The position numbers were made by a program, and so were the translations under genes. From Euzebya tangerina (lineage in GTDB: Bacteria; Actinomycetota; Nitriliruptoria; Euzebyales; Euzebyaceae): 64,000 nucleotides of DNA. Location: positions 3,038,001-3,102,000 of the forward strand of contig NZ_PPDK01000001.1 in the NCBI RefSeq assembly GCF_003074135.1, read 5' to 3'. Each line of letters opens with the position of its first letter. Position 1 is the first letter of the stretch. Of the stretch, positions 5,480-49,307 are shown piece after piece. Under the pieces are notes generated by a model that worked only from the letters and a program-made list of their open reading frames with translations, was not told the origin of the DNA and did not search any database.

Positions 5480-8095
5480 ATGCGGTCGATCGTTCTCACC
5501 CTGCTGCTCGCCATCTCGCTGCTCCCCGCCACCGCGACCAGCGCCGCTCCGATCCAGGATGGCGCCGCTCCCGATGATGACGCCTTCCACATCATCAACG
5601 GGGTCCCGGCCGACCCGGGGGAGTACCCCGGGATGGCGGCGGTGATCGAGGTCACGCAGGGCTTCGGCCAGTTCTGCGGCGGCACGCTCATCGATCCTGA
5701 GTGGGTCATGACAGCGGCCCACTGCTTCTTCGACCCGCGCACGGGGGAACGGGACAGCCAGCCCGAGGACCTTGCCGTGGCACTGGACACCGTGGACTGG
5801 CGGCAGGGCGGTGAGCGTCTGGCGATCAGCGAGATCGTCATCCATCCGGCCTACGACGCGATCACGAGCGCCAACGACATCGCCCTGATGCGGCTGGCCA
5901 CACCGGCTCAGACCCCGCCCAGCGCGATCGTCCAGGCAGGACAGACCGAGCTGTACGAGCCTGGGCGCGCGGCCGTGGTCACCGGGTACGGCGCCACCAC
6001 ACCGTTCGGTGAGAACCCGTCCCCCATCCTGCTGGAGGTCGGCGTCCCGCTGGTGAGCGATGCCGCCTGCCAGCAGGGGTATCCGACCCTGGTGGGTGAT
6101 CGGATGGTCTGCGCGGGCGACCCCGGGACCGAACAGTCGCCTGGCAACGACAGCTGCCAGGGAGACTCCGGCGGGCCGCTGTGGACCGATCGAGGCGACG
6201 GGGTGCTGGCCGTCATCGGTGTGACATCCTTCGGCGGGCTCTGCGGCGTCCAGGACCCCGGCGTGTACACCGAGGTGCTGACCTACGTCGGCTGGTTGGC
6301 CGGCATCATCGACGGAACCATCGGCCCTGGCGACCCCGACCCGACGACACCAGCCCCACCGGCCGCTGCCCCCCAGCGGATCACCGTCGACGGCAGCGGC
6401 ACCAGCGACCCGGTCGGCCAGGCCGTGGCCATCTCCCAGACCAGCTTCCGCGACGGCGAAGGGCAGTACGGCGTCATCGCGACCTCCACCCGCTTCCCCG
6501 ACGCGCTGGCCGGTTCCACCCTGGCCTTCGGCGTGGCACCGCTGCTGTTCACCGGACCCGACGGCCGGCTGGACGAGGACACCCTGAACGAGCTGCGCCG
6601 TGTCGTCCCGGCGGGCGGGACCATCTACGTGCTGGGTGGCGTCGCCGCGATCCCCGCCTCCGCGGACACCCAGTTGACCGACCTCGGCTTCGCGGTCCAG
6701 CGGCTCGCGGGATCCGGCCGGGAGGAGACGGCGTCCCTGGTCGCCGACCAGGTGCTCGACCCGGGTGACGGCATCACCCCCGTCATCGGCGGGACCGTTG
6801 TGCTGGCCACCGGGTCGAACTGGCCGGACGCGGTCACGGTCGGCGAGTTGGGATCTTTCTGGGGACCGCCGATCCTGCTGACACCGACGGAGTTCCTCAG
6901 CCCGTTCACGGCGGAGGCGCTCCGTCGCCTGGCCCCCGAGCGGGTCCTGGTCGCCGGCGGGACCGTGGCGATCGCCGACTCGGTGGTCGCCGAGGTCGAG
7001 GCGATCACGGGGGCCGGGAGCACCACCCGCCTGGCCGGGCCGACCCGATTCGAGACCGCTGCACAGGTGTCGCTGTTCAATCGGGGCCTGTACGGCACCC
7101 AGCCGCCGGCGGTGGTGGTCGGCGTCAACCTGCGCCGCGAGCGCGACGCCTTCGCCCACGTCCTGGCCGCCTCGATGCTGACCGGCCGTTTCGGCGGGGT
7201 GTTCGCCGCGATCGAGGGTGACAGCGGTGAACGGATTCCCCAGGCCGTCCTCGATGCCGTGTGCGGGCTGGACACCCAGGTGCTCATCGCCGGTGACACC
7301 GACCTGATCAGCGACGCCGCGGCGTCGGTGCTGGCCGATGCGACCGCCGGGACAGGATGCACGCCAACCGCCCCGCTGGACCCGGGACCCATCCCCGGTC
7401 CAGGCGACCCCGGTGGTCCGGGCGATCCGGGCGATCCCGGGCCGTCGGAGCCGGGCGACACCGTCGATCTGGCCCTGGGGGACATCGTGACCGACACCCT
7501 GGATGCCACGACCCCGGCCCGGCGGTACCGCTTCCAGGGCACCGCCGGTGAGGCCATCCGGATCCGCCTGTCCGGGCCACAGGGAGACGGGCCACCCCTT
7601 GACACGGTCGTCAACCTCCTCACCTCGGACGGGCGACTGATCGCGACCGACGATGACAGCGGCGGGAACTTCAGCTCCCTGTTGCAGGTCACGCTGCCCG
7701 CCACCGGGACCTACGTGATCGAGGCGACGACGTTCCGGCAGGACGGCCAAGGTCTGTACTTCCTCAGCGTCGACCCGGCACCGGATGCCGAGGCGCAGAG
7801 CGAGATCACGCCAGAGCAGCCGGCGCAGACCGTCGTGATGAGCGGCGCGCCCGGGACTCGGGTCATCGTGGAGATGCGGGCCCTGTCGAACACCACCGAC
7901 CCGCTGCTGATCGAGGTGGAGAACAACACCGCGGTGGGCGGGGACGATGATGGCGGAGGCTTCCCCCACGCCCGGTTGGACACCACGATCGGCGTCAGCG
8001 GTCAGCTCGTCGTCCAGGCGACCGTGGTCGGGGAGGCGTACGGCCCCTTCTCGCTGGCGGTCTTCTCACCCGGCGGCGACATCAGCTTCGGCTGA
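5480..8095 (+). CDS. Secreted trypsin-like serine protease with CWB2 repeats and PPC domain
   Basis: Extracellular S1 protease likely anchored to the wall. Residues 1-23 form a signal peptide. The protease domain begins near IINGV (residue 38) and carries His81 (TAAHC), Asp133 (NDIAL) and Ser230 (GDSGGP). Asp224, six residues before the serine, corresponds to chymotrypsin Asp189, so cleavage after Arg/Lys is expected. Residues about 305-620 contain cell-wall-binding-repeat-2 units (for example RLAGPTRFETAAQVS). A Pro/Gly linker leads to a PPC (pre-peptidase C-terminal) beta-sandwich at about 655-760 (YRFQGTAGEAIRIRL), and the last about 110 residues may be a second similar module. It may be a processing or nutrient protease displayed at the surface. 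Its 3' end overlaps the opposite-strand gene by 30 bp. Total length 871 residues. Confidence 0.88.
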   Translation: MRSIVLTLLLAISLLPATATSAAPIQDGAAPDDDAFHIINGVPADPGEYPGMAAVIEVTQGFGQFCGGTLIDPEWVMTAAHCFFDPRTGERDSQPEDLAVALDTVDWRQGGERLAISEIVIHPAYDAITSANDIALMRLATPAQTPPSAIVQAGQTELYEPGRAAVVTGYGATTPFGENPSPILLEVGVPLVSDAACQQGYPTLVGDRMVCAGDPGTEQSPGNDSCQGDSGGPLWTDRGDGVLAVIGVTSFGGLCGVQDPGVYTEVLTYVGWLAGIIDGTIGPGDPDPTTPAPPAAAPQRITVDGSGTSDPVGQAVAISQTSFRDGEGQYGVIATSTRFPDALAGSTLAFGVAPLLFTGPDGRLDEDTLNELRRVVPAGGTIYVLGGVAAIPASADTQLTDLGFAVQRLAGSGREETASLVADQVLDPGDGITPVIGGTVVLATGSNWPDAVTVGELGSFWGPPILLTPTEFLSPFTAEALRRLAPERVLVAGGTVAIADSVVAEVEAITGAGSTTRLAGPTRFETAAQVSLFNRGLYGTQPPAVVVGVNLRRERDAFAHVLAASMLTGRFGGVFAAIEGDSGERIPQAVLDAVCGLDTQVLIAGDTDLISDAAASVLADATAGTGCTPTAPLDPGPIPGPGDPGGPGDPGDPGPSEPGDTVDLALGDIVTDTLDATTPARRYRFQGTAGEAIRIRLSGPQGDGPPLDTVVNLLTSDGRLIATDDDSGGNFSSLLQVTLPATGTYVIEATTFRQDGQGLYFLSVDPAPDAEAQSEITPEQPAQTVVMSGAPGTRVIVEMRALSNTTDPLLIEVENNTAVGGDDDGGGFPHARLDTTIGVSGQLVVQATVVGEAYGPFSLAVFSPGGDISFG

Positions 8096-44178: not shown

Positions 44179-44727
44179 ATGAACATCCTCCTGGTGGCCG
44201 ACCACTCCTCGGTGTTGAAGCAGGTCCGCGTGGCCGTCGACGGGTGGGCTGGCTCCGAGATCCTTCACGTCGCAACCCCCGAGCGGGCGCTGGCGATCCT
44301 GGACGAGGGGCAGACCTTCGACATCGTCATCGGGGACAACGACACCCACCCGACCGGGGGGCTGGCCCTGTGCCGCGAGGTGAAGGCTCGGGGACAGATG
44401 GGCCGGTCGATTCCGCCGGTCGTCCTGCTCATCGCGAGGGAGCAGGATCGGTGGTTGGCCAACTGGGCGCAGGCCGACGCCCACGTCCAGAAGCCGGCAG
44501 ACCCCTTCGACCTCCGCGAGACGCTGCAGTCCGTCATCGCAGGCGAGGAGGTCAGGGCCCTCCCGGGGATCGGATCGGACCCGAAGCCGAGCCTGCTCGA
44601 CCCGGCCCCCGAGCGTGAGTTGGCAGAGGTCACCGGTGCTGCCGGGCGGACAGCGGAGGGACCCCCGGACGAGGTGTCCGGCGAGCTCGATGACCGCGTC
44701 GCCAGCGGGCCGGGCGTGAATTCGTGA
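44179..44727 (+). CDS. Orphan receiver-domain (CheY-like) protein
   Basis: 182 residues: a receiver-like domain (1-125) and an acidic, Pro-rich tail without an output domain. The likely phospho-acceptor is Asp53 (FDIVIGDND), and Lys105 keeps the KP pair (HVQKPADPF). However, the N-terminal acidic pair is reduced (LLVADHSS) and the conserved Thr/Ser position reads Ile (VVLLIA), so signalling may be altered. No histidine kinase is nearby. Its stop overlaps the trpD start by 4 bp (GTGA), so the two are translationally coupled. Confidence 0.75.
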   Translation: MNILLVADHSSVLKQVRVAVDGWAGSEILHVATPERALAILDEGQTFDIVIGDNDTHPTGGLALCREVKARGQMGRSIPPVVLLIAREQDRWLANWAQADAHVQKPADPFDLRETLQSVIAGEEVRALPGIGSDPKPSLLDPAPERELAEVTGAAGRTAEGPPDEVSGELDDRVASGPGVNS

Positions 44728-45740
44728 CGATCCCAGAGGTGCTCTCCACGCTGCTGGCGGGAGAGGACCTGGACGATTCCAGCACCCACGGCGTGATGGA
44801 GGCCATCATGCGCGGTGACGTGACCCCGGCACAGGTCGCCGGCTTCACCATGGGGCTGCGGATGAAGGGGGAGACCGCCGAGGAGATCGCGGGTCTGGTG
44901 TCGGCGATGCGGTCGTTCGCGCTGCCGGTGTCGGTGGAGGGTCCACTGGTCGACACCTGTGGGACCGGTGGGGATCGGGCCGGGACGTTCAACGTCTCGA
45001 CCCTGGCGGCCCTCGTCACGGCCGGAGCGGGCGCGAAGGTGGCCAAGCACGGCAACCGGGCGGCCAGCGGCAAGTGCGGCTCGGCCGACCTGCTGGAGGC
45101 GTGGGGAGTGGTCATCGACCTGCCGCCCGACGGGGTCGAGCGGTGCATCGAGGAGGTCGGCATCGGCTTCTGCTTCGCGCCGATGTTCCACCCGGCCATG
45201 CGGCACGTCATGCCGGCGCGGCGCGAGCTCGGGGTGCCGACGGTGTTCAACTTCCTCGGTCCGCTGACCAATCCGGCGGGGGCGGGGCACCAGACGATCG
45301 GGGTCTCGGACCCGGCGATGGCGCCGAAGATGGCGGGCGTGTTGGCGCGACTGGGTAGTGTCCATGCCTTGGTGTTCCACGGCTCGGACGGGCTGGACGA
45401 GCTGACCACGACCGGTCCCTCGACCATCTGGGAGGTCCGTGAGGGGTCGGTGGAGTCCTACGACTTCGACCCGGCGGAGCATGGCGTCGCCCGGGCGACC
45501 GTCGAGGATCTCAAGGGTGGGGACCTCGAGGACAACCTGCGGATCGCGGACGCGGTCTTGGAGGGGCAGGCGGGGGCGCCGAGGGACGTCGTGGTCCTGG
45601 GTGCCGCTGCGGCGCTGATGGCTGTTGATCGGGCCGGGTCGTGGGAGGAGGCGCTGGGTCTGGCGGCGGAGTCGCTGGACTCGGGGGCGGCTCGGGGGGT
45701 TCGGGACTCCTGGGTGACCCTCTCGAAGTCTCTGGCCTGA
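44724..45740 (+). CDS. trpD: Anthranilate phosphoribosyltransferase
   Basis: Second enzyme of tryptophan biosynthesis, joining anthranilate to phosphoribosyl pyrophosphate. 338 residues. Key motifs are DTCGTGGDRAGTFNVST (PRPP-binding), KHGNRAASGKCGSADLLEAWG, the anthranilate-site region FAPMFHPAMRHV and FNFLGPLTNPA. The start is GTG 44724. No other trp gene lies in the window, as usual for the dispersed actinobacterial trp genes. The stop is 11 bp before the left end of the repeat-bounded nuclease unit. Confidence 0.94.
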   Translation: MTIPEVLSTLLAGEDLDDSSTHGVMEAIMRGDVTPAQVAGFTMGLRMKGETAEEIAGLVSAMRSFALPVSVEGPLVDTCGTGGDRAGTFNVSTLAALVTAGAGAKVAKHGNRAASGKCGSADLLEAWGVVIDLPPDGVERCIEEVGIGFCFAPMFHPAMRHVMPARRELGVPTVFNFLGPLTNPAGAGHQTIGVSDPAMAPKMAGVLARLGSVHALVFHGSDGLDELTTTGPSTIWEVREGSVESYDFDPAEHGVARATVEDLKGGDLEDNLRIADAVLEGQAGAPRDVVVLGAAAALMAVDRAGSWEEALGLAAESLDSGAARGVRDSWVTLSKSLA

Positions 45741-45750
45741 CCGGTCGCGA

Positions 45751-45878
45751 AGTCGACACGATCGGGGCCTAACCAACACCATTCGGGTTTCTCGCACGAT
45801 CGTGGTGCGGCGACGGGTGGGCAACTGGCCACGATCGGGGGCTAACCCGCGTATACGAAGGTTCTTGCACGATCGCGG
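45751..45878 (+). repeat. Left repeat pair (L1, L2) of the nuclease unit
   Basis: L1 at 45751-45805 and L2 at 45827-45878 both run from CACGATCGGGG(C/G)CTAAC to a CACGATCG(T/C)G end. They are inverted relative to the right-hand copies. Confidence 0.85.
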
Positions 45879-45958
45879 CAAATGCCGAGCCCGGGGCGAT
45901 TCCGGCTAGCTGTGGATATCGAGCCGGGTGTTCGTCGGCAATCAGTCACTCTTGTCCG

Positions 45959-46840
45959 ATGCATCATCTTCACGGCATCGCGACGAAAGCGGACCTTGCA
46001 GAGGCCGGCATCTCGGAGGGGCAGCTCGCGCGCTCTCCGGGCTATGAGCGAGTTGCGGCCGGCCACTACGCGCTGCCCGGCTCTCGCCGGGATTTCTGGT
46101 TCAACGCTGCGCTTGCCCAAACGGTGGCTGGGGAGGACTCGCGTCTGACGTCTCACTCCGCACTCCACCTGCTCGGCGTTCTCGACCAGCCCGGTCGTGT
46201 CGTGCAGGTGGTGGTTCCGGAAGGTAAGGGAAGCCGCAAGCGCCAAACCTTCAACGTCCGCCGAGCGGTGAACCTGCCGGACGTCGTCACGACGCGGTCA
46301 GGGCTTCGTTCTGTTCCGGTGGCCTACGCGATCTGTGACTATGGTCGGGACGCGTCTGACGGCGCGGTGGCCTTTGCAATCAGCAGGGCACTCGGCTTGC
46401 GCTTGACCACCCTGGTCGAACTCGCTCAGGTGGTCGCACAACGCGGGAAGTTCCCCGGTTCGGCCAGACTCCGGCGGGTCCTGCGCGACTTCGATGGAGT
46501 GGAGTCACACAGCAAACGAGAGCGCCTCCTGCACCGACGCCTTCGTCGCAGGGGCCTCACGAGCGTTGTCGCCCAGCGTGCGGTCAGGGACCTCGACGGG
46601 AGGGTTGTCGCCAAGGCTGACCTTGCTGTTCCGGAAATCAAGCTCATCATCGAAGTCGACGGTCCGCACCACTTCTCGCCCGCACAACAGGAGGCCGACC
46701 GCCAGCGGGATCGACGGCTGAGAGCCCTCGGATGGACCACGATCAGGATCACCTGCTACGAGCTGGACGAGAACCCCGAGCGGGTTGTTGCGGAGATCCT
46801 CCGACTGGTCGCGCAGCTACGGGCCGACTTGGCCGCCTAG
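45959..46840 (+). CDS. AbiEi-like antitoxin domain fused to DUF559 (Vsr-like) nuclease domain
   Basis: 293 residues. The N-terminal part (about 1-60) looks like the AbiEi-type winged helix (IATKADLAEAGISEGQLARSPGYERVAAGHYALPG), followed by an AbiEi-like middle region. The C-terminal domain (about 185-290) is DUF559, related to Vsr endonucleases: Asp221 in KADLAV, Glu232-Val-Asp234 in LIIEVDGPHHF, then ADRQRDRRLRALGW and a strand TIRIT. These positions fit a PD-(D/E)XK active site, but cleavage is not shown. Such proteins are frequent and multi-copy in actinobacteria, with unknown role. Codon use is visibly less GC-rich than the neighbours. No AbiEii partner is adjacent. ATG 45959 is 80 bp after the inner left repeat; the stop is 20 bp before the inner right repeat. 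Confidence 0.75.
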   Translation: MHHLHGIATKADLAEAGISEGQLARSPGYERVAAGHYALPGSRRDFWFNAALAQTVAGEDSRLTSHSALHLLGVLDQPGRVVQVVVPEGKGSRKRQTFNVRRAVNLPDVVTTRSGLRSVPVAYAICDYGRDASDGAVAFAISRALGLRLTTLVELAQVVAQRGKFPGSARLRRVLRDFDGVESHSKRERLLHRRLRRRGLTSVVAQRAVRDLDGRVVAKADLAVPEIKLIIEVDGPHHFSPAQQEADRQRDRRLRALGWTTIRITCYELDENPERVVAEILRLVAQLRADLAA

Positions 46841-46860
46841 CGGGCAAGCGGGCGGTTCTT

Positions 46861-46989
46861 GGACACGATCGTGCAAGAAGTTCGAATGGCGTGGGTTAGG
46901 CCCCGATCGTGACCACTGCGCTCGACGATCCCAGCCACGATCGTGCAGAAAGCGGGAATGGCGTGGGTTAGGCCCCGATCGTGTCGACT
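46861..46989 (-). repeat. Right repeat pair (R1, R2) of the nuclease unit
   Basis: R1 46861-46914 and R2 46935-46989 share GAATGGCGTGGGTTAGGCCC in their middle and are reverse complements of the left copies. R2 pairs best with L1, R1 with L2. Confidence 0.85.
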
Positions 46990-46998
46990 CCAAACAGG

Positions 46999-47292
46999 CT
47001 AGAGGCCCTCCGAACCCTCGAAGCCGACACCCCAGAGCCGCTCCAGGTCCTCCGACGCGTAGGTCCGGAAGGCGATCATCGTGTGCGTCCCCGTCACGCC
47101 CTCCAACTTGGCGATGTCCTCGGTGACCACCTCGGCGATCTCCTCATGGGTCTTCACGCGCACCATCGCCACCAACTCCCAGTCCCCGGTCACCGAGTAG
47201 ACCTCCGAGACGCGGTCGACGTTGGCCAGAGCTGTCGCCGTCTCGGGGATCTGCGCCACGTCGACGCTGAGGAGAACGATGGTGGTGATCAC
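46999..47292 (-). CDS. Lrp/AsnC-type RAM (ligand-binding) domain protein without HTH
   Basis: 97 residues from GTG 47292, covering only the amino-acid-binding RAM domain: TTIVLLSVDVAQIPETATALANVD, VSEVYSVTGDWELVAMVRVK and the end TMIAFRTYASEDLE. No DNA-binding domain is encoded upstream, so this is the stand-alone form seen in many actinobacteria, possibly modulating full-length Lrp proteins or acting as an enzyme effector. Upstream TTG 47316 and GTG 47310 are alternative starts. It is divergent from the peptide ABC operon (205 bp between starts) and ends 10 bp from the outer right repeat. Confidence 0.85.
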   Translation of the reverse strand: MITTIVLLSVDVAQIPETATALANVDRVSEVYSVTGDWELVAMVRVKTHEEIAEVVTEDIAKLEGVTGTHTMIAFRTYASEDLERLWGVGFEGSEGL

Positions 47293-47497
47293 GCCTGCAC
47301 CATACGCCACGGTCAACAGCGGCTTGGATATCCGGTACTAGTCTCGGTACTCTCACGGCCGATAGCGTCCGAGGAAACGGCTGCGGCGCCGCCCAGCAAC
47401 ATTGGGAACCGGCCACCACGGTCGTTTTCGGCTATTGTCAATCCTGGGCTCCTACCGTGATCGTAGGACCAACTCGACCAGAGAAGGAACAGACCAT

Positions 47498-49307
47498 ATG
47501 ACGATCAAGCAACTGCAGCGCCTCTTGGCTCTGCTCATGTTCAGTGTGCTGGTGCTTGCCGGCTGTAGTGGCGGGGACGACGAGGGTGACACCGCCGTCG
47601 AGGAAGACGGCCCCACCGAGGAAGACGCGGGCGCCGACGAGGAAGAGCCCGCCGACGAAGAGCCCGCCGACGAGGAGCCGGCCGACGAAGAGCCCGCCGA
47701 CGAAGAGCCCACAGACGACGAGGGTGGCGACTCCGAAGCCTCCGGTGACGTGATCTCCTCCAACATCGCCCAGCCCGAGTCCCTGACGCCGATCAACAAC
47801 ACCGAGTCCGAGGGTCAGCAGGTCATCGACGCACTCTTCACCGGTCTGGTGGACGTCGACTCCGAGACCAACGAGCTCGTCCTGCAGCACGCCGAGTCCA
47901 TCGACACCGAGGACAACGTGACGTTCGTCGTCACGCTGAAGGAGGGCTGGACCTTCCACGACGGCACCCCGGTGACCGCCCAGTCCTACGTCGACACCTG
48001 GAACTACGGCGCGTTCGGCCCGAACGCCCAGTCCACGTCGGCCCAGTACACACAGATCGCCGGCTTCGACGACGTGCAGTGTGGCACCACCGAAGACGAA
48101 GAGGGCAACGACGTCGCCGACTGTGAGGGCTCGCCGCCCGCCGCCGAGACCATGTCCGGTCTGGTCGTCGACTCTGACACCCAGTTCACGATCACCATGT
48201 CCGAGCCCGTGCCGTTCCTGACCACCCAGATGAAGGCCTCCGCCTTCCTGCCGCAGCCCGAGGTCTTCTTCGACGACCCCGCCGCCTACGACCGCGCCCC
48301 GGTCGGCAACGGTCCGTTCATGATGGACGGCGAGTGGGAGGATGACGTCGCGATCTTCACGACCGCGTTCCCCGACTACCAAGGTGACGACGCGGCGCAG
48401 TACGGCGGCCACGAGTTCCGCATCTACGCGGCCATCGAGACCGCCGTGACCGACCTGGTCGCAGGCAACCTCGACATCGTCAACGGTGTTCCGCCGGAGC
48501 AGTGGGAAGACACCATCGCCCAGGTCCCGAACAGCGCGTTGAGCCCGGACTCCGGCATCAACTACATCGGGTTCCCCGACTACGCCCCGCCGTTCGATGA
48601 CCCGAACCTGCGCGCCGCGCTGTCGATGGCCATCGACCGCGAGGCCATCACCCAGGGGATCTTCAACGGTCTTCGTGCTCCGGCCTCGAACTTCTTCAGC
48701 CCGGTGATCCCGGGATACGTCGAGCAGATCGACGGGTGCACCAACTGGAGCTTCAACCCCGAAGAGGCTGCGGCTCGCTTCGAGGAGTTCGGTGGCGTCG
48801 AGGCCCTCGGCGACTCGCTGGACGTGTGGTTCAACGAAGGCGGCGGTCACGACCTGTGGCTGGACGCCGTCATCACCCAGTGGGAGCAGAACCTGGGCAT
48901 CCCCGCCGTCGTCCGTCAACTTCCAGCAGCTTCCGTTCGCGGAGTACCTGGAGTTGGCCGACAACCAGGAGCTGACCGGTCCGTTCCGTCTTGGTTGGGG
49001 TGCCAGCTACCTGCACCCGCAGTACTACATGGTCCTGGCTCTGCAGCAGACCGCTGACGAGGGCGGCAACAACGCCACCTTCTGGCGCAACGACGAGCTG
49101 GACGCCACGATCGACGAGGCGCTGGCGACCACGACGCTGGAAGAGTCCCTGCCGATCTGGCAGGAGGCGATGGCCATCGTCTGCAACAACGCGCCGTTGG
49201 CACCGGTGTTCTTCAGCCAGAACACCTTCGCCTGGAACGACGGCATCGAGGGCGTCAACATCGACGCCTTCGGCGTCATCGACTACGAGGCGATCACGAC
49301 GAGCTGA
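47498..49307 (+). pseudogene. Peptide ABC transporter substrate-binding lipoprotein, frameshifted
   Basis: OppA/DppA family (SBP_bac_5) binding lipoprotein. Start ATG 47498 has GAAGGA upstream; signal LALLMFSVLVLAGC with lipid Cys about 19. An acidic linker with four PADEE repeats (47645-47704) leads to the binding domain (for example LKEGWTFHDGTPVTAQSYVDTW, RAALSMAIDREAITQGIFNG). The frame in use from 47498 loses similarity after GIPAVV near 48913, while the +1 frame continues with NFQQLPFAEYLELADNQ to the stop at 49307. One extra C at 48913/48914 (GTCGTCCGTC instead of GTCGTCGTC) explains it. Corrected length is about 602 residues. It is either a real inactivating frameshift or a sequencing error; the rest is intact, so error is quite possible. 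Confidence 0.85.

Follow-up and report, generated by a model that had tools for sequence, protein, structure and literature searches.

Why should a single nuclease gene, lying between trpD and an Lrp-type gene in Euzebya tangerina, be enclosed on each side by two tandem palindromic repeats that mirror those on the other side? The locus is part of a stretch of 64,000 nucleotides (contig NZ_PPDK01000001.1, positions 3,038,001 to 3,102,000), called here the window, and its features are collected in Table 1. The initial annotation described four repeat copies in the order L1-L2-gene-R1-R2, with both pairs inverted, and considered that they might be the ends of a self-spreading or mobilised one-gene unit. 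The coordinates confirm the order and the inversions, and alignment of one flank with the other gives a score of 60, against a median of 13, a 99th percentile of 20 and a maximum of 40 for a null of the same geometry in the window. The outer pair is identical at 47 of 55 positions, and its perfect terminal run is 24 bases long rather than the 23 first counted. The spacers do differ in sequence, as claimed. The unit is indeed fitted tightly between its neighbors, with 10 bp to the trpD stop and 9 bp to the end of the Lrp-type gene, where 11 and 10 bp had been given. The lower GC content of the gene holds as well, the difference being modest (65.5%, compared with 68.6% for the window and 70.9% for trpD), and we likewise find no transposase within 45751-46989. 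Since RNA folding of the window repeats is weak (z from +0.07 to -2.3), we claim no RNA function for them.

Table 1. Features of the nuclease unit and of its borders; positions are those of the window.
Feature	Position	Strand	Remarks
trpD	44724..45740	+	Left border of the insertion site, outside the unit; trpD and lrp are directly adjacent in relatives lacking the unit
Palindromic repeat L1, 48-bp core	45757..45804	+	Similarity spans 45751-45805; dispersed family in the genome
Spacer L1-L2	45805..45829	.	Start-to-start distance 73 bp; sequence unlike the other spacer
Palindromic repeat L2	45830..45877	+	Direct relative to L1, 73 bp apart
AbiEi-DUF559 (Vsr-like, PD-(D/E)XK) nuclease gene	45959..46840	+	293 aa
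AbiEi-type winged-helix/antitoxin-like part, residues ~1-165	45959..46453	+	PADLOC AbiEi E 3.5e-11; Foldseek; proposed DNA-binding part
DUF559 nuclease domain, residues 184-283	46508..46807	+	Pfam match; 3hrl and I-Bth0305I fold
Palindromic repeat R1	46864..46911	-	Inverted relative to L1/L2
Spacer R1-R2	46912..46935	.	Start-to-start distance 72 bp
Palindromic repeat R2	46936..46983	-	Similarity spans 46935-46989; direct relative to R1, 72 bp apart
Lrp/AsnC-type gene	46999..47316	-	Right border of the insertion site, outside the unit

The substrate-binding protein gene beside the Lrp-type gene (window 47402-49307) reads in two frames, 47402-49057 and then 48792-49307. The tblastn matches of relatives to this protein also split near residue 500, and this suggests a frameshift in the genome or in the assembly. 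The N-terminal region of the protein contains an acidic tandem repeat (DEEPADEEPADE..., window about 47630-47760), of which varied versions are present in G002 and G003.

The enclosed gene encodes a two-part protein. DUF559 is the sole Pfam family matched (E 1.4e-12, 47.9 bits against a curated cut-off of 20.6), and residues D221, E232, and D234 of this domain are invariant in two alignments. An AlphaFold model of the protein has a pLDDT of 84.9. The best Foldseek match of the N-terminal part is AbiEi 6y8q (E 1.9e-6), and the C-terminal part matches the endonuclease-like protein 3hrl and the homing endonuclease I-Bth0305I. With DUF559 alone in Pfam, and AbiEi plus a DUF559/EDxHD nuclease in Foldseek, what the gene encodes is not an HuH/Y1 (IS200/IS605-type) transposase. 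The N-terminal half resembles the AbiEi antitoxin of AbiE type IV toxin–antitoxin systems (e.g., Rv2827c), which also have inverted repeats upstream. The unit differs from these systems in that the AbiEi-like part is fused to a nuclease, the repeats lie on both sides and genome-wide, and an AbiEii (DUF1814) toxin gene is absent beside it, the neighbors being trpD and the Lrp-type gene. The C-terminal fold and the conserved acidic residues are those of Vsr, I-Bth0305I and Caulobacter VsrA. Unlike these, the window gene is not in an intron, has no mismatch-repair context, and is linked to dispersed palindromes of its own. VsrA, a DUF559 protein, triggers a DNA-damage response in Caulobacter when ScmA methylation is missing (PMC12907096); we found no other experimental work on DUF559 in the open-access literature. 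Titles, abstracts, and term searches of that literature do not tie DUF559 to dispersed repeats.

The enclosure is not peculiar to this locus. We compared the 450-bp flanks of 55 distinct actinobacterial DUF559/AbiEi loci, four named loci that duplicated loci of the genome set having been removed before counting, and scored as positive those above 99% of a cross-locus null. A repeat shared by both sides is present at 32 of the 55 loci but at only 3 of 147 control ORFs, which were of comparable length and drawn from nine of these genomes (Fisher P 5e-19), and the best-scoring of the three control ORFs is itself a DUF559 gene. The association of DUF559 genes with palindromes is strong; at the other 23 loci no flanking repeat pair is detectable. 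Each positive locus has repeats of its own, for the most part unrelated to those of the others. Most of the repeat families tested recur elsewhere in their own genome, all copy numbers here and below being lower bounds (at least about 22 in G025, at least 31 in G052, at least 12 in G017, and fewer in others). For the families of G050 and G024, searches of their own genomes gave none beyond the surroundings of the gene. On a short contig of G052 (C151, L169), eight palindromes in the same orientation follow one another at spacings of 73, 92 (four times), 103, and 73 bp.

Within the genus, the unit occupies the trpD-lrp junction in all four species, and the other three also have two or more repeats per side. 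Despite the shared site, the repeat sequence differs by species. When dispersed copies are compared with the repeats that flank DUF559 genes, 58 of 62 best match those of their own species, a count biased in part because some copies were found with that species' repeat as query; a joint search gave the same picture. Gene and repeats therefore diverge together, and the suggestion in the initial annotation that the repeats belong with the nuclease gene is upheld by this co-divergence and by the survey of flanks. In G001, copies identical to the gene-flanking repeat over 55-56 bp lie on unlinked contigs, which suggests recent amplification in that genome. The G001 gene at trpD-lrp (L053) is inverted between its repeats, as recombination between inverted repeats would give. 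In G003 (L054, 5190-7370), an IS21-type istA/istB insert interrupts the DUF559 orthologue, and dispersed repeats are still present in the same genome. G000, G001, and G002 each have a second DUF559 gene, accompanied by a further private repeat family.

The junction has also been compared in more distant relatives. In four of the same order (G017, G022, G020, and G021) the trpD-lrp gap is 34-82 bp and holds no gene or repeat unit, so that empty sites, of the kind that the initial annotation proposed to look for, do exist. In G023 (L305), a lone palindrome is found at trpD-lrp, and it is similar to the repeats that flank a different DUF559 gene in G023 (L112). The unit is intergenic, outside any intron, and its borders are insertion-like. 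Conservation falls to background about 3-8 bp outside the element, and the border consensus reads ATTCG in G000 and CGGCGA in G001, with no GTAG tag at either.

Where else does the repeat of the window occur? It is found at no fewer than about 40-50 places in the 4.78-Mb genome, either in an asymmetric form (CACGATCGGGGCCTAACCC...TTTCTGCACGATCGTG) or in a fully palindromic one, and several of these copies are tandem pairs, again 72-73 bp apart. The initial annotation had proposed a search of the genome for copies flanking DUF559 genes; none of the dispersed copies lies beside one. The copies fall in 16 co-directional and 5 convergent gene contexts and in 0 divergent ones, typically ~17 bp from the 3' end of a gene, by a rough analysis in which 8 further copies fell inside crude ORF calls that are probably overlong. 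We rejected an autoregulatory operator alone in view of the copies downstream of the gene and throughout the genome. The idea that the repeats are the ends of a mobile one-gene unit survives in part. The unit is insertion-like, as the four empty junctions indicate; the repeats themselves belong to a dispersed family of ~50-bp palindromes, a kindred type of which numbers several hundred in some alphaproteobacteria, and the gene stays put at one conserved site in the genus. Taken literally, copies at unrelated sites are what the initial annotation named as evidence against a link between repeats and gene, yet they do not overturn that link, because the REP elements of RAYT systems are scattered in the same way.

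The tandem arrangement has a regularity of its own. Start-to-start distances cluster at 61/62, 71-74, 82/83, 91-93, 102/103, and 112 bp. A Rayleigh test on distances unique per family gives a period of 10.1 (R 0.66, P 7e-7, an optimistic value, as it is taken at the best period), and the spacings outside the 72 class alone give P 0.002. Tandem duplication fails to explain the window pairs, since their spacers differ in sequence; some longer arrays, such as those of G052, may contain duplications. Such helical phasing points to recognition of the repeats, as pairs, by a protein complex on double-stranded DNA. Hairpin covariation in four families yields one convincing pair, at columns 24-39 in G001, and little else.

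Palindromes also accompany DUF559 genes outside the actinobacteria. Short alphaproteobacterial DUF559 genes adjoin repeats of the form CC[CT]TC[CT]CCC-loop-GGG[AG]GA[AG]GG, with a GGTGAGGG or GGATGAGGG tail. At 16 of 30 loci an exact match to the repeat is found no more than 150 bp from the gene, compared with 0.15 expected from its density; with two mismatches allowed, the figures are 20/30 for these loci and 2/61 for control segments. Among 48 alphaproteobacterial genomes, 12 of the 13 with DUF559 have at least 2 repeats, as do 2 of the 35 others (P 1.6e-8, a value that ignores shared ancestry), and counts reach at least 283 per genome. A REP superfamily concentrated in the alphaproteobacteria, the CGTC REPs, has been reported without a dedicated transposase (Di Nocera 2013, PMC3733652). 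The DUF559-linked repeats recall it in these respects, and we considered a direct match. We dropped it because the repeats do not fit the CGTC description, by which the two are set apart.

In E. coli K-12, CCCCTCACCCTAACCCTCTCCCCAGAGGGGCGAGGGG lies downstream of the DUF559 gene ycjD, with part of the repeat, inverted, at the 3' end of the gene; E. coli genomes contain this repeat at a median of 19 places each. Between pstA and pstB, a repeat of the ycjD type is present in some strains and absent from others, as an exact 92-bp indel. With an 8-bp direct repeat, ACACGGTT, at its boundaries, the indel could equally well be a deletion between the direct repeats or an insertion. A second palindrome, resembling classical REPs, adjoins the polymorphic element. 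At fabI-sapF (L322, MG1655 6030-6860; L323, L324), strains have either ycjD with its repeats or an efflux operon (eef). The junction was thus rejected as a clean empty site, the ycjD-less strains examined carrying the efflux operon there. K-12 (L322, MG1655) has, between the repeats, a duplicate of 39 bp from the 3' part of ycjD.

The closest known parallel is the REP/RAYT system, with its REPtrons and REPINs. Of the two REP superfamilies described in 2013, the GTAG class alone is known to have an enzyme partner, RAYT; the REP elements of RAYT REPtrons are extragenic and lie close to 3' ends, in gaps between co-directional or convergent genes (PMC3733652). The likenesses are several. Inverted copies of a short palindrome stand on either side of the gene; further copies are dispersed extragenically with a 3'-end bias and avoid divergent gaps; the repeats are specific to the gene, and the gene is largely immobile. 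The differences lie in the parts. The window unit lacks both the HuH/Y1 transposase and the GTAG tag and has an AbiEi-DUF559 PD-(D/E)XK nuclease instead, and its elements are ~50 bp long and form helically phased direct tandem pairs. We looked for the transposase and the tag that define a RAYT REPtron and found neither, so the unit is not one. It shares only its layout with RAYT systems, to whose protein and repeats its own are unrelated.

We are highly confident that the pairing of DUF559 with its palindromes is real and functional. What the pairing does is a separate matter. On balance, we favor a REPtron-like module, mobilisation included, in which a PD-(D/E)XK nuclease takes the place of the RAYT transposase and has a private palindrome. 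The proposal runs as follows. An AbiEi-type DNA-binding, Vsr-like nuclease would recognize its own private ~50-bp palindrome, present as mirror-image flanking pairs around the gene and as non-autonomous copies scattered between genes. The protein would bind phased pairs from a single face of the DNA duplex, and the DUF559 domain would nick or cut at the palindrome or at a target. Host repair or replication would then copy the palindrome into the break. The gene would be inherited mostly vertically, the palindromes being the spreading part, and the nuclease would thus be what spreads them. PD-(D/E)XK enzymes hydrolyse DNA and are unable to rejoin strands. Unlike a RAYT/HuH transposase, then, the protein could not carry out classical transposition alone, and host functions must do the joining.

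Four other explanations deserve consideration. The AbiEi-type protein might simply bind the palindromes, those beside the gene being its own operators and the scattered ones being regulon or nucleoid sites kept by selection, without mobility. AbiEi-type antitoxins do autoregulate via 23-bp inverted repeats (PMC7319586), the helical phasing of the pairs suits a complex on double-stranded DNA, and site and protein co-diverge. A network of binding sites fits poorly with scattered copies that lie at 3' ends and keep clear of divergent promoters, with repeats downstream of the gene, with the unlinked identical copies of G001, and with the presence or absence of a whole element in E. coli. We judge it unlikely. 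Less likely still, another enzyme, such as a RAYT or an IS transposase encoded elsewhere, moves the palindromes, and DUF559 is a passenger or cuts them to limit their spread. Against a foreign mover stand the private repeat sequence of each DUF559 gene, the way in which repeats go with their gene, and the rarity of repeats in alphaproteobacterial genomes without DUF559; for it speak the inability of a PD-(D/E)XK nuclease to rejoin DNA and the REP-like palindrome beside the pstA-pstB element.

The palindromes could also restrain the nuclease, by sequestration or self-marking, such that their loss would free it to cut the genome. The DNA damage caused by Caulobacter VsrA when DNA modification is missing (PMC12907096) is in keeping with such a decoy or addiction module, which we nonetheless regard as quite improbable given that repeat numbers range from few to hundreds; the persistence of repeats in G003, where the gene is broken, fits either view. 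An ordinary MITE/REP family might lie around the gene by chance; this reading could appeal to the dispersal of the window repeat and is disfavored to the point of being scarcely credible by the recurrence of unrelated repeats at 32/55 homologous genes against 3/147 controls, the conservation of the arrangement in four species, and the alphaproteobacterial and E. coli cases.

With the REPtron-like module as the preferred reading, a broader proposal can be made, tentatively and at somewhat less than even confidence. DUF559 nucleases, from actinobacteria to alphaproteobacteria and in E. coli, may constitute a second REPtron class with no relation to RAYTs, in which each nuclease diversifies with its private ~50-bp palindromes and spreads them by cutting DNA that host repair then copies. 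A hydrolase, not a transposase, would then drive a large share of orphan repeats. Bacterial genomes commonly contain short palindromic repeats, and DUF559-type enzymes are candidates for the missing partner, the engine, of a large class of those that are orphans. The statistical and phylogenetic link gives DUF559 genes, including ycjD of E. coli, a concrete functional hypothesis, and the E. coli case makes the link directly testable in laboratory strains. If repeats are indeed spread by a hydrolytic nuclease with no transposase involved, DNA would have a means of multiplying inside genomes that is new.
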